64,000 nucleotides of DNA from Flagellimonas sp. MMG031 (lineage in GTDB: Bacteria; Bacteroidota; Bacteroidia; Flavobacteriales; Flavobacteriaceae). The notes beneath the pieces were generated by a model that worked only from the letters and a program-made list of their open reading frames with translations, was not told the DNA's origin and did not search any database. The stretch's first letter is position 1. Each line of letters opens with the position of its first letter. Positions 14,732 through 45,247 of the stretch are shown piece by piece. The position numbers and the translations under genes were made by a program. The DNA lies in assembly GCF_040112705.1 (NCBI RefSeq), contig NZ_CP157804.1, positions 1,661,001 through 1,725,000 of the forward strand. The letters run 5' to 3'.

Positions 14732-14753
14732 TTGTATCTAAAATAATCTGTTG

Positions 14754-14796: not shown

Positions 14797-14812
14797 TGAG
14801 AAAAACCATTCC

Positions 14813-29402: not shown

Positions 29403-29560
29403 AGTCGGTATATTAATGCTGAGGTGTTATTGTCCTGATTCCTTATTTAACCGTTGCCTTACACCCTAGGTTGGCTTATAAGCAAGTAAATCAATGTTCT
29501 TTTCCGTATCAAAAATACGGACTAGGAAAAAGAATACAACCGATAGATTGTTAAAATAAA

Positions 29561-29590
29561 AAAGTCTGTAAAATATAGTTTACAGACTTT
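29561..29590 (-). terminator. Hairpin just outside the island's left end
   Basis: AAAGTCTGTAAA (29561-29572) pairs perfectly with TTTACAGACTTT (29579-29590), loop of six. It sits 20 bases outside the left core repeat, matching the hairpin 19 bases from the right core repeat. I read it as the original chromosomal terminator of tRNA-Lys, displaced by integration. No gene lies directly in front of it now. Confidence 0.6.
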
Positions 29591-29609
29591 ATGAGTTTTT
29601 TTGAAATAA

Positions 29610-29628
29610 AAAAAGTGACCTGACTGGG
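29610..29628 (+). repeat. Left core repeat of the tRNA-Lys island (att copy)
   Basis: AAAAAGTGACCTGACTGGG is identical to 41869-41887, which covers the 3' end of the tRNA-Lys gene. Similarity continues weakly into the T-arm (GAACC in register), then stops. Same orientation as the right copy, as expected for an integration-generated direct repeat. The gap 29403-29928 holds nothing else coding. Confidence 0.8.
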
Positions 29629-29689
29629 TTCAGAACCTTCGCTAATCAGCCCAGTGTCTATCAATATCCTGAGAAAGTTCACATCCGTT

Positions 29690-29709
29690 GTTGACGATTT
29701 GTGAACTTT
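29690..29709 (+). repeat. Left arm-type repeat
   Basis: GTTGACGATTTGTGAACTTT also occurs at 41754-41773 inside the right end. On the left it is preceded by AAAGTTCAC (29674-29682), the reverse complement of its second half, making an inverted repeat. Position 62 bases inside the core repeat suggests an integrase arm-binding site or excision-factor site (inference). Confidence 0.6.
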
Positions 29710-29928
29710 TACGTTTGATTTGCTTTCGTCATTTCAAATATAATTAAACCTTTATAAATAGTTGGAATGGACACGATGAGTTGTTGATCGTATAAGTTTT
29801 ATTTATCTCGGTCATCTTAAACCCCATTAAACTATTTTGAGGTCAATTGCTCCCCCAAGATGAAGATCAATACTCCTTGCACCTAATTTAAGCCAGATAT
29901 ATTTTAGTTAACTTAGTGATTAAGAGTG

Positions 29929-32760
29929 ATGAAAAAAATGGCCCTAACTAAATATAATCTTGTTTGCATTTTTACATCAATAGGTATTTCATCATTTGGC
30001 CAAAATATATCCCAAGAGTTTTTGACCAACCAATCACAAATAGACTCCTTATCAAAAATCTCGGCATATGATGATGCACTTCTGCTAGCATTGCAAAATT
30101 TGAAAATTGCAAAAAATATGTCCTCACCTTTACTCTTGGGCAAAGCGCAAAGTGAGGTGGCCAATTGCTACTTTTACAAAGGCAATTACGATTCCACACA
30201 GCACTATGCCAAAAAGGCCATTGCATTAGGAACTGAGAAGAATTTGCCCGAAGTGACCACAAGTGGCCTACTTTCCATTGGTAACATACATTACTCAAAG
30301 TTTGAAGATGTTGAAGCCATAGCCACATACCAGCAAATAGACTCTATTGCTTCGTATTCCAATGAAAAGAACCCATATGTTGTGAAAGCGTTGTTCAATT
30401 TGGGCAAAGTACTTTTAAGGACCTATAGTGTACAGGACACCTCATATATCGGAAAGTCCGAAGGCTATTTCAGAAATGCCATAAACATGGCTTCGGAAAT
30501 CAATGACAGTGACCAGGAACACTACGGCTATATTATGCTAGGAAATATTTTTGGGCAAAGAAAGGAATATGAAAAAGCCAAGCCCTATTTTAAAAAAAGC
30601 TTGGCATATTTTAAAAGCAACGGTTCCATTGAAAACGTGGCAAATATTTATTGGTCCTTGGGTATCATAGAGACAGACCTCAATAATTATGATCAAGCCG
30701 ATGCCTACTATAAAAAAAGGCTTGACCTGCTCACTGAGACAAGGGACCCTAATCAAATCGCTAATGCCAATCGGGTCTACGCTGGGTTTCTTCTAAGAAT
30801 TGGGCGCTATAAACAGGCCATACCATATTTTGAAGACGCTTATGCTTATTTTAAACAAGCCGATGCCGGTTCTAGTGGTGTTTTGTTGGGAATCGCCAAA
30901 AACCTAGCTGAATCCTATGGAAAAACCGGTGACTTTGAGCAAGCGGTCAAATACTATGGACAATCGTTCGTTCTGCAAGATTCTCTAGAGGCCCGAAAGC
31001 AAAAGAGCCTTGCTCTGGACCTTGAAGCCAAATACCAAACACAAAAAAGAGAACAAGAAATAGCACTGTTGAAATCACAAAATGAACTCGCCGAACAACA
31101 AAAAAGGAATCAGCGCAATCTTTTTTTGGGAGGAATAGGTTTAACATCCTTGGCAGTAATGTTCCTCTTTGTTCTTTATCGCAACCGTCAAAGAACGAAT
31201 CAAAAATTAAGAGAGCTGGATGTGGCCAAATCAAACTTTTTTGCCAACATATCCCATGAACTGCGTACACCTTTGTCTTTGATACAGGGTCCGATAGAAC
31301 AGCAACTGGAGCGTTTGGAACTAAGCCAAGAAGATAAACGGAACCTGACCATTGCCAAAAAGAACACCCAACGGCTAGCTGCTTTGGTCGACCAGTTGCT
31401 GGACCTATCAAAACTGGAATCAGGGTTTTACAAATTGCATGTAGGTAAAGCAATATTGTCCACTTTTTTGAAATCACAGGCGGAATCGTTCGTGTTCAGC
31501 GCCGAAAAAAAGTCCCAACAACTCCAAATAAAAATCTCCAAAGATCAAAATCATTATTGGTTTGATGCAGACATACTTCAGAAGGTGGTTGGTAATCTCT
31601 TGGGCAATGCACTAAAATACAGTCCACAAAATGCCAAGATAGATTTTGAGGCGGAAATCATAGAGGGCGTTCTTTCATTAACGGTGACAAATACAGATGT
31701 ATCCATAACAAAAAAAGAGTTACAGGAAATATTCAACCGCTTTCACCAAATTCATACCAATAAAAGAGGCACGGGCATTGGGCTAGCTCTCACCCATGAA
31801 CTGGTCGGGTTGCATAAAGGAAAGATTGAGGCCAAGAGCAGTACAGAAAGTGTCACGTTTCACGTAGAATTGCCCATACTTGAAACCGACTACTCAAACG
31901 AGGAAAAAGTAACTGGCACAAAATCAACAACTTTAAAGGAAACCTATCAAGAAAATACAGATGCAATTGAAGATGAAAGTAAAGTATCCATTACGGAAAA
32001 TGATGAAAACCGCGACATTATTTTGATCGTGGATGACAATGAGGATCTACGAACCTACGTTTCTTCTATTTTTAATAACGAATTCAATATTGTTACGGCA
32101 GATAATGGAAGCACCGGTTTTCAAAAAGCATTGAAACGGGTACCCGATCTTATCATAACAGACCTGATGATGCCCGAAGAGGATGGACTGAAATTGACCG
32201 AAAATTGTAAGACCAACGATGCTACATCCCACATTCCCATTCTAATGCTCACTGCAAAGGCTGGTGATGAAAATAGACTGACAGGATTGGAAACAGGTGC
32301 CGATGCCTATCTGACCAAGCCATTCAACAACAAAATTTTGAAGCAGACTGCAAAAAACTTATTGGAGAGCCGTAGAAAACTACAGGAGCGTTTTAGTCAA
32401 GAGATTGTTTTAACCCCGAAGGACATATCCATCAGCTCTTATGATGAGCGCTTCTTAGAGTCCCTTCAAAATGTTTTGGACGATCATTTGGTCGCCTCAG
32501 ACTTTAATTCAAAAGATTTTGCAAAGGCTTTGGGTATGAGCAGAATGCAGCTGCACCGAAAGTTAAAAGCGCTCACAGGACAGACCACTACGGAATTCAT
32601 TCGTAGCCAAAGGCTAAAATTGGCCGCTTCACTACTTCAAAAAAGTGATGTCAATATTTCCGAAATTGGCTATCAGGTGGGCTTTAACGATCATTCCTAT
32701 TTTACAAAGTGTTTTAGGGAAACCTATGGAACATCTCCCTCTGAATTCAGTAAAAAATAA
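29929..32760 (+). CDS. TPR-sensor hybrid histidine kinase / response regulator with AraC output
   Basis: 943 aa, five parts in one chain. Signal peptide and periplasmic TPR-type repeats (about 30-350); a transmembrane helix (about 397-418); HisKA with the phospho-accepting H443 in FFANISHELRTPLSL; HATPase (about 538-650) with NLLGNALKYSP and GTGIGLALTHEL; receiver domain ILIVDDNEDLRTYV with phospho-acceptor D745 in LIITDLMMPEEDG; and an AraC helix-turn-helix (about 855-943). This resembles the hybrid two-component systems of Bacteroidota but with TPRs in place of a beta-propeller sensor. First gene of the island after the left end; it may control the exported proteins that follow. The start is the ATG one codon after a GTG. 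Confidence 0.93.
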   Translation: MKKMALTKYNLVCIFTSIGISSFGQNISQEFLTNQSQIDSLSKISAYDDALLLALQNLKIAKNMSSPLLLGKAQSEVANCYFYKGNYDSTQHYAKKAIALGTEKNLPEVTTSGLLSIGNIHYSKFEDVEAIATYQQIDSIASYSNEKNPYVVKALFNLGKVLLRTYSVQDTSYIGKSEGYFRNAINMASEINDSDQEHYGYIMLGNIFGQRKEYEKAKPYFKKSLAYFKSNGSIENVANIYWSLGIIETDLNNYDQADAYYKKRLDLLTETRDPNQIANANRVYAGFLLRIGRYKQAIPYFEDAYAYFKQADAGSSGVLLGIAKNLAESYGKTGDFEQAVKYYGQSFVLQDSLEARKQKSLALDLEAKYQTQKREQEIALLKSQNELAEQQKRNQRNLFLGGIGLTSLAVMFLFVLYRNRQRTNQKLRELDVAKSNFFANISHELRTPLSLIQGPIEQQLERLELSQEDKRNLTIAKKNTQRLAALVDQLLDLSKLESGFYKLHVGKAILSTFLKSQAESFVFSAEKKSQQLQIKISKDQNHYWFDADILQKVVGNLLGNALKYSPQNAKIDFEAEIIEGVLSLTVTNTDVSITKKELQEIFNRFHQIHTNKRGTGIGLALTHELVGLHKGKIEAKSSTESVTFHVELPILETDYSNEEKVTGTKSTTLKETYQENTDAIEDESKVSITENDENRDIILIVDDNEDLRTYVSSIFNNEFNIVTADNGSTGFQKALKRVPDLIITDLMMPEEDGLKLTENCKTNDATSHIPILMLTAKAGDENRLTGLETGADAYLTKPFNNKILKQTAKNLLESRRKLQERFSQEIVLTPKDISISSYDERFLESLQNVLDDHLVASDFNSKDFAKALGMSRMQLHRKLKALTGQTTTEFIRSQRLKLAASLLQKSDVNISEIGYQVGFNDHSYFTKCFRETYGTSPSEFSKK

Positions 32761-32942
32761 CCTTCCCGAGTCTCCTTAAGGCCAAGGTTTTTCTACCCTG
32801 TTACATATTTCATAGGCTTTGATACATAATTCATAGCCCTCAGCATTATGTGCCATTATGTTTGCTCAAGCGTTGAGTGATGGCCTATACCCCATACATT
32901 CAGCCTTACAGATTGACTAACACAAAAACACTTCATATCACC

Positions 32943-33092
32943 ATGAAGAAAAAGAGGTATGAAGGCATACTTGAAGAAGTTCCCCGATATGAGATTTATT
33001 TGAACGTGAACAAATTGCAAAAGGGAAAATACAAGCTAAAGATTATGAATAAAAACCATGTCATCAAAAGCACACATTTCTCTAAGGAGTAG
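32943..33092 (+). CDS. Small 49-aa basic protein
   Basis: Starts at the ATG at 32943; the frame extends upstream without clear coding character. A 49-residue lysine-rich peptide with alternating beta-type pattern (YEIYLNVNKLQKGKYKLKIMNKNHVIKS). It resembles short single-domain proteins seen in Bacteroidota genomes that I cannot name. It stands between the hybrid kinase and the kelch-like lipoprotein, with about 180 non-coding bases before it. Confidence 0.6.
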   Translation: MKKKRYEGILEEVPRYEIYLNVNKLQKGKYKLKIMNKNHVIKSTHFSKE

Positions 33093-33212
33093 GCCAAGGA
33101 GAAAAATGTCAACAAGGTAAAATAAATAATCTGCCATCAAGTGATCAATCACTTTGGCTCGAAGATGGAATAACAAAATTGTTCCCCTAAATAACATAAA
33201 ATTAAACTACTC

Positions 33213-34520
33213 ATGAAACCTTTTTTTAGATCAATTATCGTTTGTCTTATCCTATTGTGCCAAGGTTGCAGCAATGATGACAATGGAAATGGAGTTGTCG
33301 TTATTGATGATGACGGTGTTGGTGATGAGCCAATTATAGAAACATTGGCAACCTTGACTCCGTCTAATAACGAAATCCCAGTTTCCAAAACACCCTCAAT
33401 CAGCTGGGAAAATTACGGTAGCGACCAACCGATAACGTATTCCCTTTTCCTTGGAACCTCTGAAAATACACTGACTGAAATCGAATCAGGACTCACAGTT
33501 ACATCATATGATATTGAAATTGCCAATGCTCTTGATTTGAACACCGAATATTTTTGGCAGATCATTGCTTATGAAGAAGGTGAGACAGTGGCGCAAAGCG
33601 AAGTTCAAACATTTACCACCGAGCTCATATTCCCAAGCTTAATCACTGAAGATGCGGCATACGGCGCCAGAAAAGCCACCGGGGTTGAAGTCTTTGATGA
33701 TAAAATTTGGGTGATTGGAGGACGAAATGAAGCAGATGTTGCCCTTACGGATATCTGGTCCAGTGATGATGGTGAGAATTGGACCTTGGAAGGTGATTTT
33801 CCTTTTGGAGGCATTTATGGGCATGAATTGATTGCCTTCAACGGTAAGTTATGGATTTACGGAGGAATTTCTGAAGGTGTCCTGTCCAATAAGATTTTTA
33901 GTTCGGAAGATGGCATTGCTTGGGTGGAAGAAACGGAGACCACGCCATTTATACAATATCAAAATTCAAAGTTTGAAGTTTTTGGGGATAGCATATTTAG
34001 ATTTGCCGGTTATTCGGGCGATATAGATGACCTATCTCCAGAACGCAATGTGTATAGCAGTATCGACGGATTAAATTGGAATTTGGAAATAGAAAATCAC
34101 GGGTTTGATACCAAGTACAGTTTTCAAATTGAAGACTTGAATGAAACCCTATATTCCTTTGAGCCCAATCCAGATTTGGACATTGAAGAAATCAGTACAA
34201 GGACCAGTATGGATGGAATCAACTGGTCGAGCCCAGAAGTTTCAGAAATCCGTGAGAGAGGCATAAACTCGGTAAGGACTGTAGTGTTGGATGGTAAAAT
34301 TATATTGATGACCACCCCTGTGGATGGCCCAAACCTTGATTCAACCTTTTATGAATCTTCCAACGGAGTAGATTGGGTAGCTGCCACAACGATTGATTCG
34401 GTTCCGATAAGAGCAATTTTCTATGCATTGGTCAATCTAAATGGCGAACTATTTGCCATTGGTGGAACACAACGGAGCAATTTTTCAACAACAAACAATT
34501 CCGTTTGGAAACTTAACTGA
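33213..34520 (+). CDS. Lipoprotein with Fn3-like and kelch-type beta-propeller
   Basis: 435 aa. Lipoprotein signal ending CQGC (lipid on the cysteine of QGCSNDD), an Asp/Gly-rich linker, a fibronectin-III-like domain (ATLTPSNNEIPVSKTPSISWENY to FTTEL, about 45-140), then a propeller of repeats of about 50 residues containing WVIGGRNE, LWIYGGISE, IFRFAGYSG and LFAIGGTQ with W-SSDDGENW motifs. The fold suggests a surface-exposed binding protein. It lacks catalytic signatures. Downstream of the hybrid kinase and in line with three more exported proteins. Confidence 0.8.
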   Translation: MKPFFRSIIVCLILLCQGCSNDDNGNGVVVIDDDGVGDEPIIETLATLTPSNNEIPVSKTPSISWENYGSDQPITYSLFLGTSENTLTEIESGLTVTSYDIEIANALDLNTEYFWQIIAYEEGETVAQSEVQTFTTELIFPSLITEDAAYGARKATGVEVFDDKIWVIGGRNEADVALTDIWSSDDGENWTLEGDFPFGGIYGHELIAFNGKLWIYGGISEGVLSNKIFSSEDGIAWVEETETTPFIQYQNSKFEVFGDSIFRFAGYSGDIDDLSPERNVYSSIDGLNWNLEIENHGFDTKYSFQIEDLNETLYSFEPNPDLDIEEISTRTSMDGINWSSPEVSEIRERGINSVRTVVLDGKIILMTTPVDGPNLDSTFYESSNGVDWVAATTIDSVPIRAIFYALVNLNGELFAIGGTQRSNFSTTNNSVWKLN

Positions 34521-34550
34521 AGATCTTAATCAATTCAATTAAATAAGCTT

Positions 34551-35246
34551 ATGAAATCAATTGTTAAATTATTACTAGCTACTATGGTAACAGGAATTTG
34601 CACGCTGCATGCCCAAAAGTTGCCCAAGAACACAAACATCAATATTTCCCAGACCTCCAAAATAGATTTGAGCAATAAAATCATTGCCAAGCCACAAAGG
34701 ATAGACGTGAGAATATTTGAAAGCCTTGATGCAAAACAAATAGCAAAACTTCCCGCTACCACATATGACCGTTCTGCTTTACTAAGGCTTAAGTACAACA
34801 AGTCATGGGAAATTGAACCTGGACGAATGACGGACAAGGATATGAAGGTAGTGTCATATTTTGGAAAATTTGAGCAGTCCCCCAGATACATTAGTGTGTA
34901 TCCAGAAAACAAATATTATCCACGAGTAAACAATGGAGCACCAGGGTTTTTACCAGAAATGAGATATCTGGTTTTGCAATTCAATCCAGAGGCCGGACAA
35001 AGATACCGCGTGATCATCAAACTTAAACCCGGCGAATACGGAAACAAAAAAGTGATGACCAATGTCACAGGAAGATATAACGATACGTGGTTTATCAATA
35101 ACCAATACGACGAAATTATGTTCGATTTCATTGGCGATAGCAAAGAAATAAAGATAAGTCCGATTATAGCGGGGTTAGAGAACTATTATATCAAGTATGA
35201 ACCATTGGAGATCGCGAATATTAAAGTTGATAGAATTGATGACTAG
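34551..35246 (+). CDS. Secreted protein of unknown function
   Basis: 231 aa with signal peptide MKSIVKLLLATMVTGICTLHAQ. The mature part is basic and beta-rich, with tyrosine-rich stretches (SVYPENKYYPRVNN, NNQYDEIMFDFIGDSKEIKISPII) and no cysteines after the signal. I recognise no family. It is the first of a tightly spaced set (gaps of 60, 7 and -1 bases) with the next three exported proteins. Confidence 0.75.
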   Translation: MKSIVKLLLATMVTGICTLHAQKLPKNTNINISQTSKIDLSNKIIAKPQRIDVRIFESLDAKQIAKLPATTYDRSALLRLKYNKSWEIEPGRMTDKDMKVVSYFGKFEQSPRYISVYPENKYYPRVNNGAPGFLPEMRYLVLQFNPEAGQRYRVIIKLKPGEYGNKKVMTNVTGRYNDTWFINNQYDEIMFDFIGDSKEIKISPIIAGLENYYIKYEPLEIANIKVDRIDD

Positions 35247-35306
35247 GCTTAACTGTAAGCCAAATTCAAAAAATAGGAGTGCCTTAAGAAACATTATAAC
35301 AACATC

Positions 35307-35915
35307 ATGAAAGTATCGAACATTACCATCGCCTTTTTGGGCATGTTGCTAATAGCTGCTTGCGGCAATACCGGAAAAAAGGAGAAATCTACTACAGAGA
35401 GTTCTGGGACAGATGTAAAATTGGAAGCTACCAGTACAATGGATTTGGAGCAAAAAGGGGACTATACCCAACTATATACTCCAAATGCAGATTGCAAACT
35501 TACCACCTCCCAATTGGCGGAGTCTTTGGGATACAGCATTGATCAAGTAGAAGAACAAAGCAATTATCAAGGAAATTGTTGGTATAAAGTGACCCATCCA
35601 GGCAATTTTACGGTCAACTACGGAATAAGCCTTGAAAAGTGGGGGGACAAAAACATTGTGGAAGATGAAATACAAAGTGGGCTGAAGAACGAGATGGTCA
35701 ATGTCCGTATAAGTGAATCTGGGGATACCTATATAAAAAGACATCCCGTTCAGGGCTTTCTGCTACTGTTAAATACCAACTATGGAAACCCTATAAAAAT
35801 CAGCTATAGTTATTTAAACACCAGTGGCCCAAAACTGACGGATTCCCAAAGTGAAGAACAGAAACAGAATACGTACAAAATTGCCAACTATCTTATTGGT
35901 CACTACCAAAAATAA
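35307..35915 (+). CDS. Lipoprotein of unknown function
   Basis: 202 aa with lipoprotein signal MKVSNITIAFLGMLLIAAC, a low-complexity Lys/Ser/Thr linker and a compact domain with two cysteines (NADCKLTTSQLAESLGY and GNCWYKVTHPG) that could pair. The DCKLxT...ESLGY...GNCWY arrangement recalls small ligand-binding lipoproteins but no family is recognised. Seven bases before the next gene, so very probably co-translated. Confidence 0.75.
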   Translation: MKVSNITIAFLGMLLIAACGNTGKKEKSTTESSGTDVKLEATSTMDLEQKGDYTQLYTPNADCKLTTSQLAESLGYSIDQVEEQSNYQGNCWYKVTHPGNFTVNYGISLEKWGDKNIVEDEIQSGLKNEMVNVRISESGDTYIKRHPVQGFLLLLNTNYGNPIKISYSYLNTSGPKLTDSQSEEQKQNTYKIANYLIGHYQK

Positions 35916-35922
35916 ATTTAAG

Positions 35923-37317
35923 ATGAAACGATTGCAAAACATCTTGTTGTTTGGCCTCTTGTTCATAGGTGCGTTTCAGGGATATGCCCAACCTTTCACC
36001 TTGAACAAAGCGATTCAGCCGGTAGAATTGAAACTATTGGCAGACACTAGAACGGGGCACGAAGGGGAACTTGGCATTGCTTATTTTAATAGATTAAAAG
36101 ATTCCGTAATGTACCACTACGTTACCGGCCACGACCTTTATAATTTTGTTGATGTGTTGGTGACCAGTGTAGACGGCACTCCATTAAAAGTAAGTTTGGC
36201 AAAAGACAACTGGGAAGTCGTGCAGGCCCAACAGAACACCGTCAATGCACGAGATGGAGTAGCGAACTTCAAGATACGCACCTGGGGAAGTTTTGGAATA
36301 AAAATAGAGCCGGAGCAACCCAATAATTCGATCTATACCATTGCAGTGGTAGCCAGCCCCGAAAGAAAAACCTATTTGGGCAGTGCCTTTAGGTCGATCA
36401 ATGAAGATGAAATGACATCCAGCGGTGAAGCCTCACCTAGCGAAGCTGCTGGGACGAGCGATGATGGAGGGGGTGCCAATTACCTGTTGTACATTGCCCT
36501 TGGGGTTGCTTTACTGGTCATTGGTGTTTTGGCCGGAAAACTTATGGGCAGAAAAGGAAAGGGGACAACAGTGATTTTGGTGCTTCTATCATTAGTGCCG
36601 TTATCAAGCTTTGGTCAAGATGGGGGCGCTGTGTTGACCATGGAAGAGTTTGAAAATTGGAAGAAGCAGCAAAATTCAAAACATGCCATGGTCATGAGCC
36701 AATTAGCGGCCCTGGAGAGCGAACGCAAAGCTGTGGACAAAGCAGTTATGGATTTAGATAAGACTATCGCAACGATACGGAAACAATGGGACAACGTTAA
36801 ATTGCTCTATGATGCCTATAACAACGGATTGGGTAAATGTATCAGTTCCACTCCGCCGGCCCAGGCGCCCTCCATACCTTCCATTTGCACTGATTTATCT
36901 CTTGACGATAACGGCTACATTTCGGAGGAGGAAGATCAAGAGTGCGCCGAATGTTTTCTGGAAGCCCGAAAGGAGTTTAACAATATACGGTACCAGTTTG
37001 AAAAGCTTGCTACAATCTATAAATGCACCAAGGACTTTTCCAATGCTGCAATTTCTTTTGGTGATGACGTATCTGGTTTTACACCTAGTGGAGTAGGTGG
37101 ATTGGCCTGGCAGACACAACGGAGGAATATAGAAAAATCCGTTACAGAACTTGAACAGGCTTATGACAAAAAATATGGCGAGTTTCTGCAGAGCTTGGCC
37201 GACGCTATGATGGAACTCAATATATGTGAGGCCAAGTATGGGGTTGAAGACTGGTACGACCGTTTTGGCTATATGTATTTTGAATTTATGAAAGATAAAT
37301 ACCAAAGAAAAGACTAA
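35923..37317 (+). CDS. Two-part exported membrane protein with internal signal-like segment
   Basis: 464 aa from the ATG at 35923. Signal peptide MKRLQNILLFGLLFIGAFQGYAQ, a beta-rich domain (about 24-165), a Ser/Glu linker, a transmembrane helix (LLYIALGVALLVIGVLAGKL), a basic turn GRKGKG, then a second hydrophobic segment TTVILVLLSLVPLSSFGQ that looks like a signal peptide without its Met. After this comes a coiled-coil domain with five or six cysteines (SICTDLSL, ECAECF, YKCTKDF, NICEAKY) and a degenerate EF-hand-like loop (SLDDNGYISEEE). Both outer domains would face the periplasm. It looks like a fusion of two exported proteins. Function unknown. Confidence 0.75.
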   Translation: MKRLQNILLFGLLFIGAFQGYAQPFTLNKAIQPVELKLLADTRTGHEGELGIAYFNRLKDSVMYHYVTGHDLYNFVDVLVTSVDGTPLKVSLAKDNWEVVQAQQNTVNARDGVANFKIRTWGSFGIKIEPEQPNNSIYTIAVVASPERKTYLGSAFRSINEDEMTSSGEASPSEAAGTSDDGGGANYLLYIALGVALLVIGVLAGKLMGRKGKGTTVILVLLSLVPLSSFGQDGGAVLTMEEFENWKKQQNSKHAMVMSQLAALESERKAVDKAVMDLDKTIATIRKQWDNVKLLYDAYNNGLGKCISSTPPAQAPSIPSICTDLSLDDNGYISEEEDQECAECFLEARKEFNNIRYQFEKLATIYKCTKDFSNAAISFGDDVSGFTPSGVGGLAWQTQRRNIEKSVTELEQAYDKKYGEFLQSLADAMMELNICEAKYGVEDWYDRFGYMYFEFMKDKYQRKD

Positions 37318-37724
37318 TGGAAGTAAAGAAAATAAAGTTCATCGTATTGCTGTCCCTATGCTTGGGCATATGGGTCAGCTGTAAATCTATAAGTCCAATA
37401 GCGACTTCGACCAATACGAACATTATTGGATCTTGGGAAGGATGTGATGGACGTGTGGTTACCTTTTACACCAATAAAAATGGAGAAATTGAAGGACGCT
37501 ATGAAAAGCTTGGGGGACTTGGACAGTACAAGTTTACCTTGAATGAAGTAGGCTTCCATCTTTCCCAGCAAACCCCGGGCACTTATGTTGGACAGGTGAA
37601 ATGGAGAAATACTATGGGAAAGGAAACTTGGAGGGATGAAACCATTGTAGTCGAAAACAATATCTTAAAAACATCAAGTTCGGATGATTGTAGCAAGGAA
37701 TTGACTAGAGTTGAACAAAAATGA
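37317..37724 (+). CDS. Small lipoprotein, lipocalin-like pattern
   Basis: 135 aa; the start overlaps the previous stop by one base. Lipoprotein signal ending WVSCKS. The mature part (IIGSWEGCDGRVVTFYTNKNGEIEGRYEKLG onward) has the GxW plus repeated beta-strand pattern of small lipocalin-like or META-type barrels, with two cysteines (EGCDG and DDCSK) that could form a disulphide. Last of the four-gene exported set. Family assignment is tentative. Confidence 0.7.
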   Translation: MEVKKIKFIVLLSLCLGIWVSCKSISPIATSTNTNIIGSWEGCDGRVVTFYTNKNGEIEGRYEKLGGLGQYKFTLNEVGFHLSQQTPGTYVGQVKWRNTMGKETWRDETIVVENNILKTSSSDDCSKELTRVEQK

Positions 37725-38058
37725 GTCAATGATTTATGAGATAGTCTTTTAATAATATCTTTGAATCGTTTATTTGGACTTTACTTTAAAGGTAAGAATT
37801 CTGGTTTATCAATGGTTTGAAAACAGGAAGCCAACAATTGCGAAGCCTCATGGGTTAATTTTTATAATTACCGGTAACTGAAAAAATGTGTTCTAAAAGT
37901 TTCAAAAGAAATAGATACACTGTTAAGAACCTGTCAAAATGGTGTAAACCTATGGTTACATGAAGGGATTAAAGTACCTTTTCCCATATTTGGGGATGAC
38001 AGAGCATAGCACTATTGGAAAGCTATATATTTTTCCCTATTCATTTGAAACCGACTCT
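37725..38058. other. Intergenic region before the DinB-like gene, with repeat copy
   Basis: 334 bases without a convincing gene. Contains ATCGTTTATTTGGACTTT at 37765-37782, a one-mismatch copy of the 18-bp repeats at 38815 and 39534, and a hairpin GTAAACC-TAT-GGTTAC near 37940-37960. No TAnnTTTG box was seen directly before the next gene. Confidence 0.5.
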
Positions 38059-38622
38059 ATGAAATCTTTAAAAACAAAAAACAGCCTTTTATTGCTATGC
38101 TTACCGATGCTATTTTTGCAGGCACAGGGAGAATTAAAGTCAGTGGCCGGCTATTCGCCGAATATTGGTAGCATGGTCTATATGTTGGAAGACCTAAAGG
38201 AACGAATCACCGAACAGGTGAAGGACTTGGACCAAACACAAACCGATTTCCAATATGATGGCGATGCAAATAGCATAGGCGCATTGATCATGCATTTGGT
38301 CTCTACGGAGTCGTATTACCAAGTAGCTACCTTAGAAGGTAGGGAATGGACAGCAGAGGAGATGGAAAGCCTTGGGGTTGCAGGGGAACTGAACTCCAAA
38401 GTTAATAACATGCTCAAAGGAGAGCCTATTGGCTACTATTTAGATCTGTGGGATGAGGTGCGTGCAAAAACCCTGGCCGGACTCAAAACCAAGGATGATG
38501 CCTGGTTCGCCTCCAACATTGAGGAAGGTTTGAACTACCGTTACATTTGGTACCATGTCATGGAACATTCGGCAAACCACATGGGGCAAATAGGCACTAT
38601 AATGAACCGCTTGCCGAAATAA
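38059..38622 (+). CDS. Exported DinB-fold protein
   Basis: 187 aa from the ATG at 38059. Signal peptide MKSLKTKNSLLLLCLPMLFLQAQG, then a four-helix DinB/YfiT-type domain. The candidate metal-binding histidines are in IGALIMHLVSTESYYQ and WYHVMEHSANHMGQIG, the usual H...HxxxH arrangement. Most DinB enzymes are cytosolic thiol transferases; a secreted form is less common but occurs in Bacteroidota. Lies alone between copies of the 18-bp repeat at 37765 and 38815. Confidence 0.82.
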   Translation: MKSLKTKNSLLLLCLPMLFLQAQGELKSVAGYSPNIGSMVYMLEDLKERITEQVKDLDQTQTDFQYDGDANSIGALIMHLVSTESYYQVATLEGREWTAEEMESLGVAGELNSKVNNMLKGEPIGYYLDLWDEVRAKTLAGLKTKDDAWFASNIEEGLNYRYIWYHVMEHSANHMGQIGTIMNRLPK

Positions 38623-38814
38623 AACCATCACATTGACATTTTGATGTAGGAGGTAAGCAAAGGGTTGGTAAAGTTTTTGATCACCGCCCAAACTCGCCTA
38701 ATGTTTTATAGAATGTCATTCTCAAAAATTGTAACATCTGAAAAACCCTTATGAAAATCTACTTTTATAAGGGAAATACATTGGGCATTTGCAAAATGCA
38801 TCTTTGAGCTTTTC

Positions 38815-38832
38815 ATCGTTTATTTGAACTTT
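38815..38832 (+). repeat. 18-bp direct repeat, left flank of cassette-like module
   Basis: ATCGTTTATTTGAACTTT, identical to 39534-39551 and one base different from 37765-37782. The two identical copies bracket the GC-rich block plus the DUF3592-like gene. Confidence 0.75.
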
Positions 38833-39018
38833 GGCAACGGTCTCGGCTATGGTTACGTTGCGGCTGGGCGGTACAGTGGAGCTAAAGGCGCTGGCCATTA
38901 CCTCTGGCCTGCGGAGCAAGCCGCCGGTTGTAAACCTTTGCGGTCGAAGTTTGTTTTTATTAAAAATAGGAAACTTTAAACAGGCTGGGAGAGGAGCAAT
39001 GAATTATAGCCAATGTTG
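38833..39018. repeat. GC-rich foldable non-coding block
   Basis: About 185 bases, noticeably richer in G+C than the flanks (runs such as GCGGCTGGGCGG and GCCGCCGG) with no sensible reading frame. Its ends are complementary: CAAC (38835-38838) and GGCTAT (38845-38850) against ATAGCC (39006-39011) and GTTG (39015-39018), so a long imperfect hairpin is possible. The right end runs into the inverted repeat bordering the next gene. From memory, related blocks beside short genes are scattered in other flavobacterial genomes; this needs a search. Confidence 0.55.
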
Positions 39019-39024
39019 TAGGTA
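39010..39024 (+). repeat. Inverted repeat, left copy
   Basis: CCAATGTTGTAGGTA; its exact reverse complement is at 39467-39481. The pair tightly encloses the minus-strand DUF3592-like gene (9 bases from its stop, 14 bases from its start). Confidence 0.8.
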
Positions 39025-39032
39025 GTTTTTAT

Positions 39033-39452
39033 TTATACTTTTTTCAGCAACCACAAGATTCCTATTCCAAAAAACAAAAATCCTCCGAATATAAAAATCA
39101 CAGGGAAATATGTTTTCCAAAAGTCGCTGTTTATCATTATTTCGTATTCATTGTCTTTTTTCAAGTAAATTATTTCAATTGGCTGATTTATCCGTTTCGG
39201 ATTTGTGCTAGAGTCCAATTTTTGAGTCGTTTCGATTCCGTTTTTGTCAGTAAATCGAACTATAGGGAAGTGATATACCTTTGAAAATCCGTCAGCGTCT
39301 TTATTCCGCTCCTCAACGAAGTCAATTATTTTAGCTTTTGTTTTAATTCCACTTGTTTGTATTCTTCGATTTGAATTCCGAAGGTAAAATCCAGCGTATA
39401 AGAACCCACCACCAACCGTTAAAAAGACAAATGCTCCAATCAAGTTTTCCAT
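39033..39452 (-). CDS. DUF3592-like membrane protein
   Basis: 139 aa with two transmembrane helices (about residues 4-24 and 113-135) on either side of a soluble beta domain (KTKAKIIDFVEERNKDADGFSKVYHFPIVRFTDKNGIETTQKL), the DUF3592 architecture. Function of the family is unknown. It is the only gene inside a 15-bp inverted-repeat pair and is AT-rich, like a mobile single-gene cassette. The start is the ATG at 39452, 14 bases after the inner edge of the right inverted repeat. Confidence 0.82.
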   Translation of the reverse strand: MENLIGAFVFLTVGGGFLYAGFYLRNSNRRIQTSGIKTKAKIIDFVEERNKDADGFSKVYHFPIVRFTDKNGIETTQKLDSSTNPKRINQPIEIIYLKKDNEYEIMINSDFWKTYFPVIFIFGGFLFFGIGILWLLKKV

Positions 39453-39466
39453 TCAGTTTTTCAAAT

Positions 39467-39481
39467 TACCTACAACATTGG
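39467..39481 (+). repeat. Inverted repeat, right copy
   Basis: TACCTACAACATTGG, the reverse complement of 39010-39024. On the minus strand it continues as GGTAATTTG just before the gene start, so it may also carry promoter information (TAATTTG is one base short of TAnnTTTG). Confidence 0.8.
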
Positions 39482-39533
39482 AATATAGATTATATGATCT
39501 ATATATCCTCTATGTGTGGAACTAAGATAAAGG

Positions 39534-39551
39534 ATCGTTTATTTGAACTTT
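39534..39551 (+). repeat. 18-bp direct repeat, right flank of cassette-like module
   Basis: ATCGTTTATTTGAACTTT, identical to 38815-38832. The distance between the two copies is 719 bases. Confidence 0.75.
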
Positions 39552-40395
39552 TATAAATGTAGGAATTTTCCAGTTGTTAAAAATTTACTTTTCGGCAAAA
39601 AGGAGGAAAAACAGTCAAGAGGTCTTGAGGAAGCAAACTTCAATGTAGGGGTAATTAAAGGTCTAAATGGTAAACCAATTAAGTGTACGGAAAAGGTAAA
39701 CTCTTTATTATCAGTAAACTTGATTTAGAGTGAAAGTTCAGTAAAACGGTGCCTTTAAAGCCTGGCCATAAATCTGAAATCGATACTAAAGCGAACGCAA
39801 CGAAGTGAAGTGCTGCAAGCCCCAAATCTTGCCAAACTAACCTTGCTGAGCGAGGCAAGTTTTATCAAAATCACAATTGTATATTCCATTTTTCCATGAA
39901 AAATACCTTCATTTTACTGGGCTGAACACTCTTTTCCGTGAAAAATGAGATTCTGGACCATTAAACTAATTCAACTACGAAAGCCTTAATTTTTCAACTA
40001 AGTTAGAGTCCAAAAAACTATTTTTTAGTCAAAAATCCATTGATTTTACTGGACTGAAAGTCTTTTTTAGTCAAAAATGCTTTAAATGCCATTGTTCAGT
40101 ATTTTTGAAAAACATCCTAAAAATGGGTTTTTCCGAATGAAAATGAATCAATAGCATCGCGCCAGCGTGCTATCCTCTTGCTCTTCATATTTTCTTTGCT
40201 CGCAAAGAAAACCTGAAAAGCCCTTTGATGTTAGAAATAGATTGGTCCAATCTAGGATTTGAAGTAGGTCATTGCACCCTATTCCAATTTTACTTTACGC
40301 TTATCTTCCCGAACACTATAAAATTACAACAGGGACCAAGCGCAAAAGTCTTGGTAAGATTGGGGCTTATTTAATTTTTCTTTTTTAAAATTAAT
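39552..40395. other. Non-coding region with short repeats and hairpins beside the integrase
   Basis: About 840 bases with no credible gene. It holds two similar 24-25-bp segments opening ATTTTACTGG (39911-39935, 40043-40066), two copies of TTTTTTAGTCAAAAAT (40021-40036, 40063-40078), a hairpin around TAGCA/TGCTA (about 40153-40173), and a perfect 10-bp hairpin TTTTCTTTGC-TC-GCAAAGAAAA (40191-40212). A place for integrase/excision regulation or a decayed gene are both possible. Confidence 0.5.
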
Positions 40396-41643
40396 CTATT
40401 CTAGTTGGTTAATCTGATCTTTTAGCTTGGATCGTAGCAGTTGCATATCATTGCTGACTTTCTTTTCAATAACCCGTGCATAAATCTGGGTTGTTGCCAA
40501 TTTGGTATGGCCGAGCATTTTTGATACTGTCTCAATGGGAACACCATTTGACAATGTTACGGTAGTTGCAAAGGTGTGGCGAGCCATATGGAAAGTAAGA
40601 TTCTTTCTGATCTTGCACAGGTCCGCAATCTCCTTTAAGTAGCTGTTTAATTTTTGGTTGGATATTTTTGGTAATAGAGTACTTGTTGCTTGTGTTCTTG
40701 CATGTCCAAAGTATTTGGTTATTAGCGAAAGCGGGAGGTCCAACAATGGGATTTCATATGGGACTCCATTCTTGTTTCGTTTTGCGGCAATCCATTTATT
40801 CCCATCAATCCCAATAATTAGATTTTTATGGCTAAGTTGTATGATGTCTCCATAGGGAATACCGGTGTAGCAACTAAAAAGAAAAAGGTCTCGTACAATT
40901 TCGAGACGCTCGCATGTGATTTCCAAATTTACAATGCTCTTAAGTTCTTCCTCGGTCAGAAATTCCCTCTGCCTTTTTTCCATTTTAGGGGTGAACTTTT
41001 TAAATGGGTCGTCTTTCAACCAATCCAGTTCAACAGCCAACTTTATTTGCTTTCTGAAACGTTGGATATGTTTCATGACAGCATTGTTGGCAATGGATTT
41101 TCTATAATGCTTTTTTGGATCATACGAGCGCAGAAAGCCCTCCAATCTCAAAAGGAACGGATAATCGAGTTCGTGTAGTGGATAGTCATTTTTATGGTAT
41201 TGTTCTTTTATGAATTCAAGAACATACCTTTGATTGGTCCTGTAATGACAAAGGGTTTTGGGAGCCAATTTTTCCTTGTGAGTCTCATTGTGAAAATCAA
41301 AGACCTCACTCAAATAATGTACTTTTTTGTTCTCACCGAGATAATGGGATTTTATCCTTTCCACTGTAACTAGACCGTGGGTTGCCTTTAGTTCCCGGTA
41401 CAGTTGGAAAATTTCCATTCTTACCTCCTCGAGGTATTCGTTTAAGTACCTGGCGGATGCTTTTGTACCCTTGGCACGTTGTTTTTTTGAGTCCCAACTG
41501 TTGACATTCAGTTTTTTCTTAAGGCTGATGTTCGCCTTCTTGCCGTTAAGACTGATTCTGGCGTAAAGATTTGCTTCATTATTGGCATCAGCTCGTTGGG
41601 CGTATTGCCAAATTAGGATGGAAAATGTTCTGGTCGATCTCAT
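40396..41643 (-). CDS. Tyrosine recombinase (island integrase)
   Basis: 415 aa from the ATG at 41643. An N-terminal arm-binding domain and a SAM-like core-binding domain (KVHYLSEVFDFHNETHKEKLAPKTLCHYRTN) lead to the catalytic domain. Box II is HMARHTFATTVTLSNGVPIETVSKMLGHTKLATTQIYARV, giving H-x-x-R-H, the second His in LGHT, and the nucleophile Y388. In box I the usual TGLR Arg is replaced: CYTGIPYGDI. Loss of this Arg is known in Bacteroides integrases such as IntDOT. It lies 230 bases from the tRNA-Lys 3' end, transcribed away from it, and is the likely driver of the 12-kb island. Confidence 0.94.
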   Translation of the reverse strand: MRSTRTFSILIWQYAQRADANNEANLYARISLNGKKANISLKKKLNVNSWDSKKQRAKGTKASARYLNEYLEEVRMEIFQLYRELKATHGLVTVERIKSHYLGENKKVHYLSEVFDFHNETHKEKLAPKTLCHYRTNQRYVLEFIKEQYHKNDYPLHELDYPFLLRLEGFLRSYDPKKHYRKSIANNAVMKHIQRFRKQIKLAVELDWLKDDPFKKFTPKMEKRQREFLTEEELKSIVNLEITCERLEIVRDLFLFSCYTGIPYGDIIQLSHKNLIIGIDGNKWIAAKRNKNGVPYEIPLLDLPLSLITKYFGHARTQATSTLLPKISNQKLNSYLKEIADLCKIRKNLTFHMARHTFATTVTLSNGVPIETVSKMLGHTKLATTQIYARVIEKKVSNDMQLLRSKLKDQINQLE

Positions 41644-41731
41644 AGAGAAAGGTTTTTGGTTAAACAATTTTCTACGAAAGTCAAATCAACCATAGAGTCA
41701 AATCGTCCGATTTTAAATGCCAAAATTTCAT

Positions 41732-41742
41732 GTTGACGATTT
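41732..41742 (+). repeat. Short arm-type repeat GTTGACGATTT
   Basis: An extra 11-bp copy of the first half of the arm repeat, 22 bases before the full right copy. Tandem spacing close to two helical turns fits a protein-binding array (inference). Confidence 0.5.
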
Positions 41743-41753
41743 AAAAATCCTAT

Positions 41754-41773
41754 GTTGACGATTTGTGAACTTT
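41754..41773 (+). repeat. Right arm-type repeat
   Basis: GTTGACGATTTGTGAACTTT, identical to 29690-29709 inside the left end. It lies between the integrase start and the core repeat. Confidence 0.6.
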
Positions 41774-41816
41774 TTAAACCATTTTATATCAAATTAAATG
41801 ATATGCTAAAAAATGC

Positions 41817-41850
41817 AAAATCCTGTAAATCAGATAGATTACAGGATTTT
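41817..41850 (-). terminator. Terminator of tRNA-Lys brought in by the island
   Basis: AAAATCCTGTAA (41817-41828) pairs perfectly with TTACAGGATTTT (41839-41850). It is directly past the tRNA-Lys 3' end on the minus strand. Similar in size and position, but different in sequence, from the hairpin at 29561-29590. Confidence 0.75.
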
Positions 41851-41868
41851 GATATCTTGTGGTTTGTT

Positions 41869-41887
41869 AAAAAGTGACCTGACTGGG
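41869..41887 (+). repeat. Right core repeat of the tRNA-Lys island
   Basis: AAAAAGTGACCTGACTGGG. It covers the last 13 bases of the tRNA-Lys gene and six bases beyond, and matches 29610-29628 exactly. The tRNA stays intact, so integration was into the 3' end and rebuilt it. Confidence 0.8.
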
Positions 41888-41947
41888 GCTCGAACCCAGG
41901 ACCCTCTCCTTAAAAGGGAGATGCTCTACCAACTGAGCTATCAGGTC
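41875..41947 (-). tRNA. tRNA-Lys(TTT), island integration target
   Basis: 73 nt. Acceptor GACCTGA/TCAGGTC with discriminator A; D arm AGCTCAGTTGGTAGAGC; anticodon stem TCTCC/GGAGA with loop CTTTTAA, anticodon TTT; T arm CTGGGTTCGAGCCCCAG. No encoded CCA. All arms are intact although its 3' end is the integration site. Confidence 0.95.
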
Positions 41948-42066
41948 TTTCAGTAAGTGCCTAGCTGTTTGGCTAAGCGGGTGCAAATATAACATCAATA
42001 ATCTATTTTCCAAGGTGAATTCTGGATAAATTTGTGTTTTTTTGAAATCGGATAATATTCTTCGAT

Positions 42067-42579
42067 ATGAAAATAGTTTTACTGGGATATATGGCAAGTG
42101 GAAAGTCGACCGTTGGACGATTGTTGGCCAGGCAATTAGGGATATCGTTTGTCGATTTGGATGATTATATCGAACAGCATCAAAAAAAATCCATAAAAGA
42201 TATTTTTTCTGAAAAAGGCGAGATTTTCTTTCGCAAATTGGAGCATCAAATGCTAAAAGAGGTCTTGGATTCACATACAGCGGTGGTGCTTTCCACTGGA
42301 GGAGGGACTCCTTGTTATGCCAACAATATGGAGACCATTTTACAACAGTCAGACAATTCCATCTATTTAAACCACAGCATACCGGTTTTAGTGGAACGTA
42401 TCACCAAAGAGAAGGAACACCGTCCTCTTGTAAAAAACATTCCGGATAATGATTTGCCAGAGTTCGTTGGCAAGCATTTGTTCGAGCGTCGACCCTTTTA
42501 TATGCAGGCCGAACACCGGGTAGATTGCGACCCTTTGTCCGCAGAGGAAGTGGTAGCTGAAATCAAGAAACTACTCTAG
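42067..42579 (+). CDS. aroK: Shikimate kinase
   Basis: 170 aa, usual length. Phosphorylates shikimate in chorismate biosynthesis. P-loop LLGYMASGKSTVGRLLA (about residues 4-20), shikimate-binding DLDDYIEQ (about 33-40), FRKLEHQML, the GGGTP motif (STGGGTPCY), and the lid RPLVKN/ERRPFYMQAE. The stop codon lies inside the end of the convergent phosphoribosyltransferase gene (9-base overlap). First chromosomal gene after tRNA-Lys. Confidence 0.95.
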   Translation: MKIVLLGYMASGKSTVGRLLARQLGISFVDLDDYIEQHQKKSIKDIFSEKGEIFFRKLEHQMLKEVLDSHTAVVLSTGGGTPCYANNMETILQQSDNSIYLNHSIPVLVERITKEKEHRPLVKNIPDNDLPEFVGKHLFERRPFYMQAEHRVDCDPLSAEEVVAEIKKLL

Positions 42580-43068
42580 GTACACCGCGTTGTTTTTGGG
42601 CTCAAAATCCACTCGGATGTGCTCGTTCAACGAAGTGGACAGCGAAATCCCCTTAAAATCCGCCTTAATCGGGTATTTTTTATGGTTGCGGTTTACCAGT
42701 ACAGCGGTTTTTAGTCGTTTTATCGGGGTTTTTAGAAAGTGATGGGTGCCATAGATCAAAGTGGTCCCGGAATTCAACACATCATCCACAAGAACAATGG
42801 ATTTGTTTTTGTAGGCTTCCTCCCCCAAGGAGGTGGTGACACCACTCGTTAGCGGATTCTTTTTGTCCATATCCATTTTGCACATCACAATATGGGCATC
42901 CGTTATCTTTTTGAGGACAGCAACGATCTTTTTGGCAAAACTTTCCCCACCGCCCGTAATTCCGGCCACTACTATTTGATCTTCATCCACATTGGACTCG
43001 TAGATTTGGTAGGCAATTCGTTTGGTAATATGCTGAATTTGGTCGTGGGTAAGGATACGGTTCATCAT
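42571..43068 (-). CDS. PyrR-like phosphoribosyltransferase
   Basis: 165 aa from the ATG at 43068 (a second ATG follows directly). Type I phosphoribosyltransferase fold: the PRPP-binding loop is IVLVDDVLNSGTTLIYG (13-residue motif VLVDDVLNSGTT), with GITGGGESFAKKI as the pyrophosphate loop region. Closest by eye to the PyrR group, which can regulate pyrimidine genes or act as a uracil phosphoribosyltransferase, but other purine/pyrimidine PRTases are possible. Convergent overlap with aroK. Confidence 0.85.
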   Translation of the reverse strand: MMNRILTHDQIQHITKRIAYQIYESNVDEDQIVVAGITGGGESFAKKIVAVLKKITDAHIVMCKMDMDKKNPLTSGVTTSLGEEAYKNKSIVLVDDVLNSGTTLIYGTHHFLKTPIKRLKTAVLVNRNHKKYPIKADFKGISLSTSLNEHIRVDFEPKNNAVYLE

Positions 43069-43104
43069 AGTTGTGGATACTTGTTTCAAAGATAGGAAAA
43101 CGGT

Positions 43105-43476
43105 TTATTCCGATTCATCCAAAAAATCGTCCAAATCCCTTCGGTCTTTTTTGGTAGGTCTGCCAAGTCCTTTTTTCCGATAATGCTTTTTGGCAAACTG
43201 CAGCAGCTCATTGTGCTCAAAGGCATCTTTGGGAGTGGTGTCCTTTCGATAGATATCCACCAATTTGGCCCCAACACGGCTTTCAGGCAGGTCCAGTACG
43301 GTAAGCTGATAGTCGATTTGGTTTTTTCTGACCACGATCTTGTCCATAGGGTATACCTCCCGCGATGGTTTTACGGAATCACCATTCACTTTCACCTGAC
43401 CTTTCTTTACGGCGGTGGAAGCAATGTTTCTTGTTTTAAAGTATCTGGTGCACCAAAGGTACTTGTCTATTCGCAT
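43105..43476 (-). CDS. S4-domain RNA-binding protein, Hsp15-like
   Basis: 123 aa. N-terminal S4 domain MRIDKYLWCTRYFKTRNIASTAVKKGQVKVNGDSVKPSREVYPMDKIVVRKNQ, and a basic tail GLGRPTKKDRRDLDDFLDE typical of the Hsp15/RlbA group, which rescues stalled large ribosomal subunits in E. coli. Placed next to the phosphoribosyltransferase gene with 36 bases between them; probably one unit. Confidence 0.9.
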   Translation of the reverse strand: MRIDKYLWCTRYFKTRNIASTAVKKGQVKVNGDSVKPSREVYPMDKIVVRKNQIDYQLTVLDLPESRVGAKLVDIYRKDTTPKDAFEHNELLQFAKKHYRKKGLGRPTKKDRRDLDDFLDESE

Positions 43477-43553
43477 GGTCTTCGCAAATCTTTGTTAAGG
43501 GGCGGAACAAAAATAATGGAAAATTGTATCTTGCGCGCCTAATTAAAGACTTG

Positions 43554-44510: not shown

Positions 44511-44533
44511 TCAGAACGAAAATATAGTACATA

Positions 44534-44570
44534 AAAAAATCCCCGTTGAAAGCAACGGGGATTTTTTTTT
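44534..44570. terminator. Bidirectional terminator
   Basis: Stem AAAAAATCCCCGTTG/CAACGGGGATTTTTT with a four-base loop, followed by more T. It separates the FKBP-like gene from the convergent outer-membrane protein gene. Confidence 0.9.
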
Positions 44571-44586
44571 AGATCAACATGCACTA

Positions 44587-45210: not shown

Positions 45211-45247
45211 TTTAGAAGTTGAATATCCCCAAAAGGGATAGTTGAAA

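Follow-up and report, generated by a model that had tools for sequence, protein, structure and literature searches.

The window analyzed here (64,000 nucleotides of the Flagellimonas sp. MMG031 genome) contains a 12.3 kb integrative element at tRNA-Lys (29612-41887) that carries a short array of two gene cassettes, delimited by three copies of an 18-bp sequence, ATCGTTTATTTGAACTTT (Table 1). The first cassette encompasses a DinB/MST-like gene that has the same direction as the sites, which is the unusual way for such cassettes, and the second one encompasses a gene coding for a 139-aa protein of a family without a name, itself enclosed in an inner, attC-like cassette. The array is followed by a res-like leader and the integrase gene. 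Between the latter two, there is a 60-nt direct repeat with 73% identity between the copies (39888-39947 and 40020-40079), perhaps representing integrase arm or accessory sites. An Rfam scan yielded two matches, both far under the gathering scores.

Table 1. Features of the integrative element and its cassette array, in window coordinates
Feature	Position	Strand	Remarks
Left att repeat AAAGTGACCTGACTGGG of the array-carrying integrative element	29612..29628	+	Second copy at 41871
Element cargo ahead of the array	29629..37764	.	92% identity over ~8.2 kb to genomes G004 and G025, ending inside site 1
Array site 1, ATCGTTTATTTGGACTTT	37765..37782	+	One mismatch relative to the 18-mer; similarity with G004 and G025 ends at 37775 and 37774, respectively
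Outer cassette 1 gene, DinB/MST-like	37960..38622	+	Pfam MST 1.9e-12, DinB_2 1.4e-9
Array site 2 (first 18-bp direct repeat)	38815..38832	+	Exact
attC-like site (GC-rich block), in gene sense CAACATTGGCTATAA ... CATAGCCGAGACCGTTG	38835..39018	-	184 nt, CAACGG to GTTG
Right end of inner cassette (inverted repeat 1)	39010..39024	-	Terminal complement rule 6/6 nt
Outer cassette 2 gene, 139 aa, family without a name	39033..39452	-	No Pfam family; inside inner cassette
Left end of inner cassette (inverted repeat 2)	39467..39481	-	Exact 15-bp repeat; complement rule
Array site 3 (second 18-bp direct repeat), closest to leader	39534..39551	+	Exact; G004 homology restarts exactly here
Res-like leader: site-I-like ACCGTTTTACTGAACTTT (39733-39750) and accessory-like repeats	39644..39750	-	Aligns with the ~107 bp ahead of the resolvase start in L061, L096, L102-L105
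Tyrosine integrase	40396..41667	-	Pfam Phage_integrase 4.2e-19, SAM_5, Arm-DNA-bind_5; by position, that of the tRNA-Lys element
Right att repeat AAAGTGACCTGACTGGG	41871..41887	+	Overlaps the end of tRNA-Lys (41874-41947)

The sequence-only reading of this locus perceived one nested module, that is, a DUF3592-like gene within exact 15-bp inverted repeats, adjoined by a foldable GC-rich block of about 185 bases and bracketed, along with that block, by identical 18-bp direct repeats, and proposed a single-gene mobile cassette moved by an unknown factor in trans. Both pairs of repeats are present as described, the inverted repeats being extendable to 19 nt at 95% identity, and no transposase or recombinase gene is seen between sites 2 and 3. 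The GC content of the block is 61% over 38833-38940 but only 50% over 38833-39024, compared to 43.6% for the window, and short stretches of its two ends are complementary to each other (CAAC/GTTG and GGCTAT/ATAGCC), but the block as a whole does not fold unusually well: the predicted fold is no more stable than those of shuffled sequences (z of -0.64, with 53 of 200 shuffles folding equally well). The DUF3592 label is not borne out, with a best Pfam match at E of 0.57 and no NCBIfam match at E of 0.001 or below.

The module itself comes apart into two systems, one defined by the 18-bp repeats and the other, attC-like, by the 15-bp inverted repeats and the block, so that the window contains two nested cassette systems, an outer, 18-bp-site cassette enclosing an integron-type one. 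For the outer repeats, the proposed single-gene mobile cassette with a mover in trans stands up well: cassette homology ends at these repeats, and in their recurrences throughout the genus they adjoin unrelated small genes. The factor acting in trans now has a candidate, a serine resolvase encoded elsewhere in the same genome (G000:C1:3235974-3236645). The absence of copies elsewhere, named in the sequence-only reading as speaking against a cassette, is not what we observed: other genomes hold copies.

Mobile cassettes between 18-bp sites

With up to 3 mismatches, the Flagellimonas sp. MMG031 genome contains 37 matches to the 18-mer (26 forward and 11 reverse); the reversed pattern gives 5 (2 and 3). 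All 19 matches with up to 2 mismatches fall into six clusters, one of which is the array in the window; such an excess and such clustering are more than expected by chance. At no more than 1 mismatch, the 18-mer is present in 60 of the 71 genomes of the genus, with 2 matches in total for the reversed control, and is missing in the other 11, including a genome of the same species (G041). Across the family, exact copies were detected in 22 of 397 genomes, spread over 16 of 237 genera, and still in 20 of 394 genomes from 15 of 236 genera when the own genus is left out; the control gave 1 match in total. Six viral contigs from IMG/VR (L188-L193) also contain one exact 18-mer apiece, and L193 additionally has a weak one; the fetched stretches of these contigs gave no resolvase match.

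The sites form arrays with the same orientation throughout, up to 26 in a single fetched locus (L124). In an alignment of 173 sites, no position outside the 18 bp (-25 to +44) exceeds 0.45 bits, compared to at least 1.16 bits inside; because these sites were chosen by the 18-mer, the inside conservation is there by construction and only the drop outside is informative. The conservation thus stops at 18 bp, and no features of a folding attC with R and L boxes were found in these sites. The intervals between the sites are short, with a median of 585 bp (300 intervals from 44 loci in 20 genomes, a few of which are leader intervals). An open reading frame (ORF) of at least 50 aa is present in 282 of these (18 have none), and in 263 of the 282, the longest ORF is opposite to the site direction; for such opposite-strand ORFs in intervals shorter than 1.5 kb, the median distance is 12 bp from the stop codon to the site and 21 bp from the start codon to the site. 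Likewise, among 391 intervals of 150-2500 bp, a few of them counted twice (L121 was untrimmed in this set), 351 have an ORF against the site direction that fills more than 40% of the interval. Overall, an outer cassette consists of a site and, in most cases, a single small gene, and non-coding DNA is scarce.

The contents of the cassettes are diverse. In 100 cassette proteins drawn from the 351, we detected 43 Pfam families, none with more than three members; the 25 of these that were listed include ParE (3), Fic and RhuM (2 each), the beta-lactamase and metallo-beta-lactamase folds (2 each), and Imm53 and GNAT (1 each). Hfx_Cass5, the Pfam family of an integron cassette protein, was found in two of the 100. 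A PADLOC search of cassette proteins yielded, among the 25 listed of 39, the candidate families PDC-S05 and PDC-S23, with 2 members each.

Evidence of movement comes from cassettes that recur in different contexts. Among 419 intervals from 65 loci, there are 37 pairs of cassettes that are alike over the full length, with 67-98% identity, not all of them independent because some cassettes belong to several pairs. Leader intervals were removed from this set (10 of the 33 pairs in the earlier 300-interval set were self-pairs of leader sites I and II), as were L139, which overlaps L178, and L059, for which the window was used instead, and L121 was trimmed. In 36 of the 37 pairs, the 400-bp flanks show no similarity on either side (blastn, E of 1e-3), and in the remaining pair, one flank does. 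The boundaries are sharp: at the edges of 13 pairs from a first set, the outer 40 bases match at 7-18 positions, compared to 32-40 of the inner 40 bases at 20 of the 26 ends and 12-24 at the other six (in an ungapped count). The DinB-like cassette of the window is itself a case in point, being 93% identical over 1071 bp to a cassette of genome G002 (L108:9913) with unrelated flanks. A search for the gain or loss of a single cassette between arrays gave only duplicated or merged intervals. Within arrays, there are also near-identical duplicates of cassettes (97-99%), at L150:6731-7511 and 14522-15303 and at L124:8821 and 17331.

The orthologous locus provides a direct comparison. In the same-species genome G041, the element is missing and the sequences corresponding to 28001-29628 and 41810-46000 of the window are joined there, so that the element was either gained recently here or lost in G041. 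Genome G004 contains the same element, with 92% identity that extends into site 1 and 79% identity from exactly site 3 onwards; between these sites, G004 has two intervals with other genes and nothing similar to those of the window. Both G004 cassettes recur elsewhere with other neighbors (in L107 at 84% and in L137 at 92% identity). This difference in content between fixed sites is, in our assessment of the compared genomes, the strongest single piece of evidence for the apparent movement of cassettes. The proximity of many sites to start codons (the median of 21 bp given above, in gene direction) and the usual co-orientation of genes in an array are compatible with a different role, namely that of a promoter or operator of a small-gene regulon that has nothing to do with recombination. 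This is highly improbable, given the end of cassette homology at the sites on both sides in 36 of the 37 pairs, the presence of other genes between the same sites in G004, and the lack of the 18-mer in 11 of the 71 genus genomes. On this comparative evidence, the outer 18-mer family can be regarded as well shown to be one of mobile gene cassettes.

An attC-like cassette inside the outer cassette

Along the gene, the inner site reads CAAC, 3 nt, GGCTATAA ... ATAGCC, GAGACC and GTTG, an arrangement from CAAC to GTTG that we take to be the attC layout. Searches with the block produced matches at E of 0.001 or below in 35 of 199 family genomes, the own one included. In 33 of the 35, the matches take in one or both ends, mostly with 85-100% identity over 22-39 nt, and in the other two (G105 and G267), they cover the interior only. 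Paired ends lie 127-160 bp apart in 10 of 12 fetched loci, with up to seven pairs in a 20-kb stretch (L213). The terminal 6-mers of adjacent cassettes from other genera are complementary at 5 or 6 of 6 positions in 8 of 12 cases (5.3% in a swapped control), and in a looser set of 45 cassettes, the value is 3.82 of 8 complementary positions versus 2.66. In the inner unit of the window, TAGGTA follows GTTG and its complement precedes CAAC; complementary cassette ends thus explain the 15-bp inverted repeat. The alternative notion that this is a dispersed genomic repeat was rejected, with the search near the control level: in the form of a 19-mer, it matches, besides the window, two places in the own genome, each with 3 mismatches, and the reversed control matches one. 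Integron right boxes have the consensus GTTRRRY. The right box here, GTTGCCA, is off this consensus, and GTTAGGC of Ulvibacterium would fit; the search pattern of the looser set favored GTTG and so gives no right-box frequency.

The 139-aa protein has relatives in Ulvibacterium, Nonlabens, Flavivirga, Mangrovimonas, an Allomuricauda metagenome-assembled genome, and five other genomes of the own genus. According to the sequence-only reading, homologues without the repeats in the same place would count against a cassette. Among 10 homologues, two of which are probably from one genome, only that of Ulvibacterium has both ends (GTTGTAGGTAATTT ahead of the gene and ACTACCTACAACA behind it), and two more, from Flavivirga and G045, have exactly the end behind the gene, which makes 3 of 10 with the downstream end; the others have neither. 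Such a pattern fits a gene moved by more than one route. The homologue in G043 (L130:11911-13849) is the only one within an outer array, where it lies directly beside a site without the inner ends, so that this gene family also came into outer arrays in a different form.

Other genera have attC-like arrays with a recombinase gene close by. Tyrosine recombinases are encoded within ~1-9 kb of such arrays in G171, G155, G245, G174 and G104, which represent five genera, and match TIGR02249 with 96-127 bits, under the cut-off of 265; this model also matches 4 of 14 control genomes. The loci L213, L215, L216, L221 and L223 contain arrays of attC-like sites that are ~130 bp long, and the tyrosine recombinases there are 379-410 aa long (306 aa in G104). 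In the own genome, no protein scores over the TIGR02249 cut-off, and the only match at E of 1e-20 or below has 83 bits. Judging from these features, there is a second, integron-like cassette system of Flavobacteriaceae behind the attC-like arrays, and one of its predicted cassettes appears to have been captured by an outer cassette of the window. A loose scan for attC-like sequences was discarded as evidence because it gave 18 matches compared to 9 in shuffled sequence, and a strict pattern was used instead. Among 419 outer intervals, five have an attC-like end no more than 40 nt from the 18-mer, always at exactly 2 nt, and 5 of 7833 interior windows were hit by the same pattern. This constant spacing points to a defined joining event. 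The five places are 38833-38834 in the window, L058:6377, L124:989, L126:3476 and L131:1218.

A serine resolvase as the candidate mover

Of the 62 listed arrays, 15 have a small serine resolvase gene within 8 kb of the head, and none has one that close to the tail. The 62 correspond to 61 distinct arrays, as the start of the L122 array was counted twice (L121 untrimmed); arrays cut by locus or contig ends were tallied separately, and L125, which overlaps L124, was excluded throughout. Three of the 15 genes are broken (L057, L104 and L105), one further array has a 53-aa resolvase fragment inside, and for 46 of the 62, the fetched stretch shows no resolvase match up to 8 kb away, some of these stretches reaching contig or locus ends. 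At E of 1e-60 or below, the gene is present in 32 of the 71 genus genomes, compared to 60 with sites. Of 40 resolvase loci of the genus, 33 are followed within 10 kb by an opposite-strand site, and two of the seven exceptions lie at contig ends; this tally was compiled by hand and covers downstream sites only. Genomes with the gene contain a median of 9.5 sites (n = 32) versus 3 in those without (n = 39; one-sided p of 3e-5, ignoring relatedness). The own genome encodes the intact resolvase mentioned above and has an interrupted second copy at 85163. This copy belongs to cluster A (L057, G000:C1:70000-89000), which shares identical site variants and spacings (351, 575 and 4931 bp) with the array at G004:C1:981029-990204; in both, the resolvase is interrupted by TGA, and so the whole array was moved or inherited recently.

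The head-gene resolvase contains the PF00239 catalytic domain (1.9e-41) with the conserved Ser and Arg residues, and the closest solved chains are those of a DNA invertase (4m6f, 1.2e-36) and gamma-delta resolvase. Arg7, Ser9, Asp66, Arg67 and Arg70, presumably the active-site residues, are invariant in 11 array resolvases. There are two types, one of 224 aa with a Cys/His-rich C-terminal tail and one of 202 aa without it; in L061:7975-8649 and relatives, the tail has the form CxECG ... CKxHK and possibly binds zinc. Close relatives are encoded in Muricauda/Allomuricauda, Croceitalea, Flagellimonas, Euzebyella and Maribacter, among others. All counted matches among the best 5000 plasmid records and in 759 phage records were below 60% identity.

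Ahead of the resolvase gene, in 8 of 26 fetched loci, there is a leader site, ACCGTTTWATTGAACTTT or close to it, in the opposite orientation and 107-110 bp from the start codon; behind it come more inverted half-sites of the GTTTAC kind, in a res-like arrangement. The leader of the window corresponds to this region, and its site-I-like sequence is an opposite-strand relative of the 18-mer with 4 mismatches. No resolvase gene follows the leader in the window or in L109, L112, L113, L062 and L175, so that the array in the window would depend on a resolvase encoded elsewhere in the genome. Leader sites often have AT at the center and array sites have TT, so exchange between leader and array would be hindered.

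We estimate at roughly two in three the probability that the 18-mer is the recombination site of integron-like arrays of Flavobacteriaceae, whose cassettes the resolvase probably moves, here in trans, and that the inner unit is older. The resolvase, which is probably the catalyst, would excise cassettes between direct 18-bp sites, presumably as circles, and would reinsert them at array sites or beside the leader. The array in the window, carried by the integrative element in tRNA-Lys, would have kept the leader and not the resolvase gene and would rely on the intact resolvase acting in trans; its second outer cassette would hold an attC-like, integron-type cassette of presumably older age. We also favor, with slightly less confidence, the broader proposal of a serine-recombinase analogue of the integron, in which a res-like leader and a small resolvase would assemble and shuffle single-gene cassette arrays via an 18-bp double-stranded site, in members of at least 16 genera, and could capture attC-like cassettes.

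Resolvases mostly resolve rather than integrate, and a serine resolvase should cut at the center of its site. The crossover was mapped on natural cassette pairs, with c denoting the position in the 18-bp site (c = 9 is the exact center). All pairs together were uninformative, and those of at least 85% identity leaned to the left edge. For pairs at least 90% identical, the left edge was preferred (log likelihoods of -158.5 at c = 2, -168.5 at c = 8 and -179.1 at c = 9); at 94% or more, the best value was -98.8 at c = 5, compared to -99.1 (c = 2 and c = 7), -101.8 (c = 8) and -113.3 (c = 9), which puts the exact center 14.5 units under the best. The right half was excluded in every set, and c = 8 fits only if the central two bases always pass to one side. 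The raw counts for the pairs at least 94% identical (14 and 12 pairs) weakly resemble what a mid-site switch might leave: at the left site, the outer seven bases have 7 mismatches versus 6.4 expected and the inner eight have 2 versus 7.3, and at the right site, the inner seven have 1 versus 6.3 and the outer eight have 6 versus 7.6. The mapping against the exact center slightly lowers the odds of the resolvase model.

A crossover left of the center, and the lack of a nearby resolvase in most arrays, would also suit truly mobile cassettes moved by a tyrosine recombinase, either XerCD, as with the dif modules of Acinetobacter, or the integrase of a host element. Integrases of the TYR2 type are encoded in 7 of the 26 fetched loci (L059, L099, L104, L105, L107, L112 and L113), and L057 and L102 encode other tyrosine recombinases; thus, in 5 of the 10 resolvase-headed arrays of this set, the stretch also encodes a tyrosine recombinase (TYR2 in L099, L104 and L105, another type in L057 and L102), whereas in the other 5, neither query type was found. 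A tyrosine mover would leave aside the near-copy of the 18-bp site just upstream of the resolvase gene; furthermore, the att repeat that belongs to the element integrase, at tRNA-Lys, does not resemble the 18-mer, and the lack of the 18-mer in 11 of the 71 genomes speaks against a chromosomal dif site and hence against XerCD. We consider such a mover unlikely. Another possibility, an improbable one, is that the arrays are dead remnants of a former resolvase system and the copy in the window a fixed island, as the leaders without a resolvase gene and the interrupted resolvase of cluster A might indicate. Against this, uninterrupted resolvase frames are found in many genomes, including the own one, cassettes in unrelated contexts are 93-98% identical, and the element missing in G041 points to a recent gain here or a loss there.

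The arrays can be compared with known systems. Gene-cassette arrays are known mainly from integrons, with a tyrosine recombinase and folded single-stranded attC, and from Xer-moved dif modules. Integrons comprise the IntI integrase, attI and gene cassettes with attC. The outer arrays share with them mostly single-gene cassettes in one orientation, sharp mobile boundaries, a recombinase gene at the head, diverse small genes and the Hfx_Cass5 family, and the inner layer has attC-like paired ends. However, in the 15 of 62 outer arrays with a detected head gene, the linked recombinase is a serine resolvase rather than a tyrosine recombinase, and the outer site is an 18-bp imperfect palindrome rather than a folding attC, in a genome with no TIGR02249 match over the cut-off. 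The outer arrays resemble integrons in function but are not integrons in their parts.

XerCD is the mover of the dif modules of Acinetobacter. In these (pdif) modules, which are found on plasmids and chromosomes, short recombinase sites lie on either side of the genes (PMC6449649). Short sites flanking genes are likewise seen here, but the array sites are co-oriented and associated with a serine resolvase of their own and with a res-like leader, and the 11 genus genomes without the site set them apart, as every genome should have dif. The SCC elements of staphylococci use the Ccr large serine recombinases, one chromosomal site and units of many kilobases; serine recombinases and tandem units parted by direct repeats are common to both, in contrast to the ~224-aa resolvase and the 585-bp median interval here. 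With gamma-delta, Tn3 and Gin, there is a shared PF00239 domain and a res-like region ahead of the gene, unlike the Cys/His-rich tail of the 224-aa type and the many solitary site-I-like copies between cargo genes. In our search of open-access articles, serine-resolvase cassette arrays were described in none of the listed titles or abstract openings, which is weak evidence of absence; the outer-array family of Flavobacteriaceae is apparently both widespread and new to the literature.

If this reading is correct, cassette capture evolved more than once, and Flavobacteriaceae would have a route of gene exchange likely to escape integron-finding software. Hundreds of candidate mobile genes, including those for toxin-antitoxin and immunity functions and many others, would be delimited in advance by their sites, and the very short site might be of use in DNA engineering.
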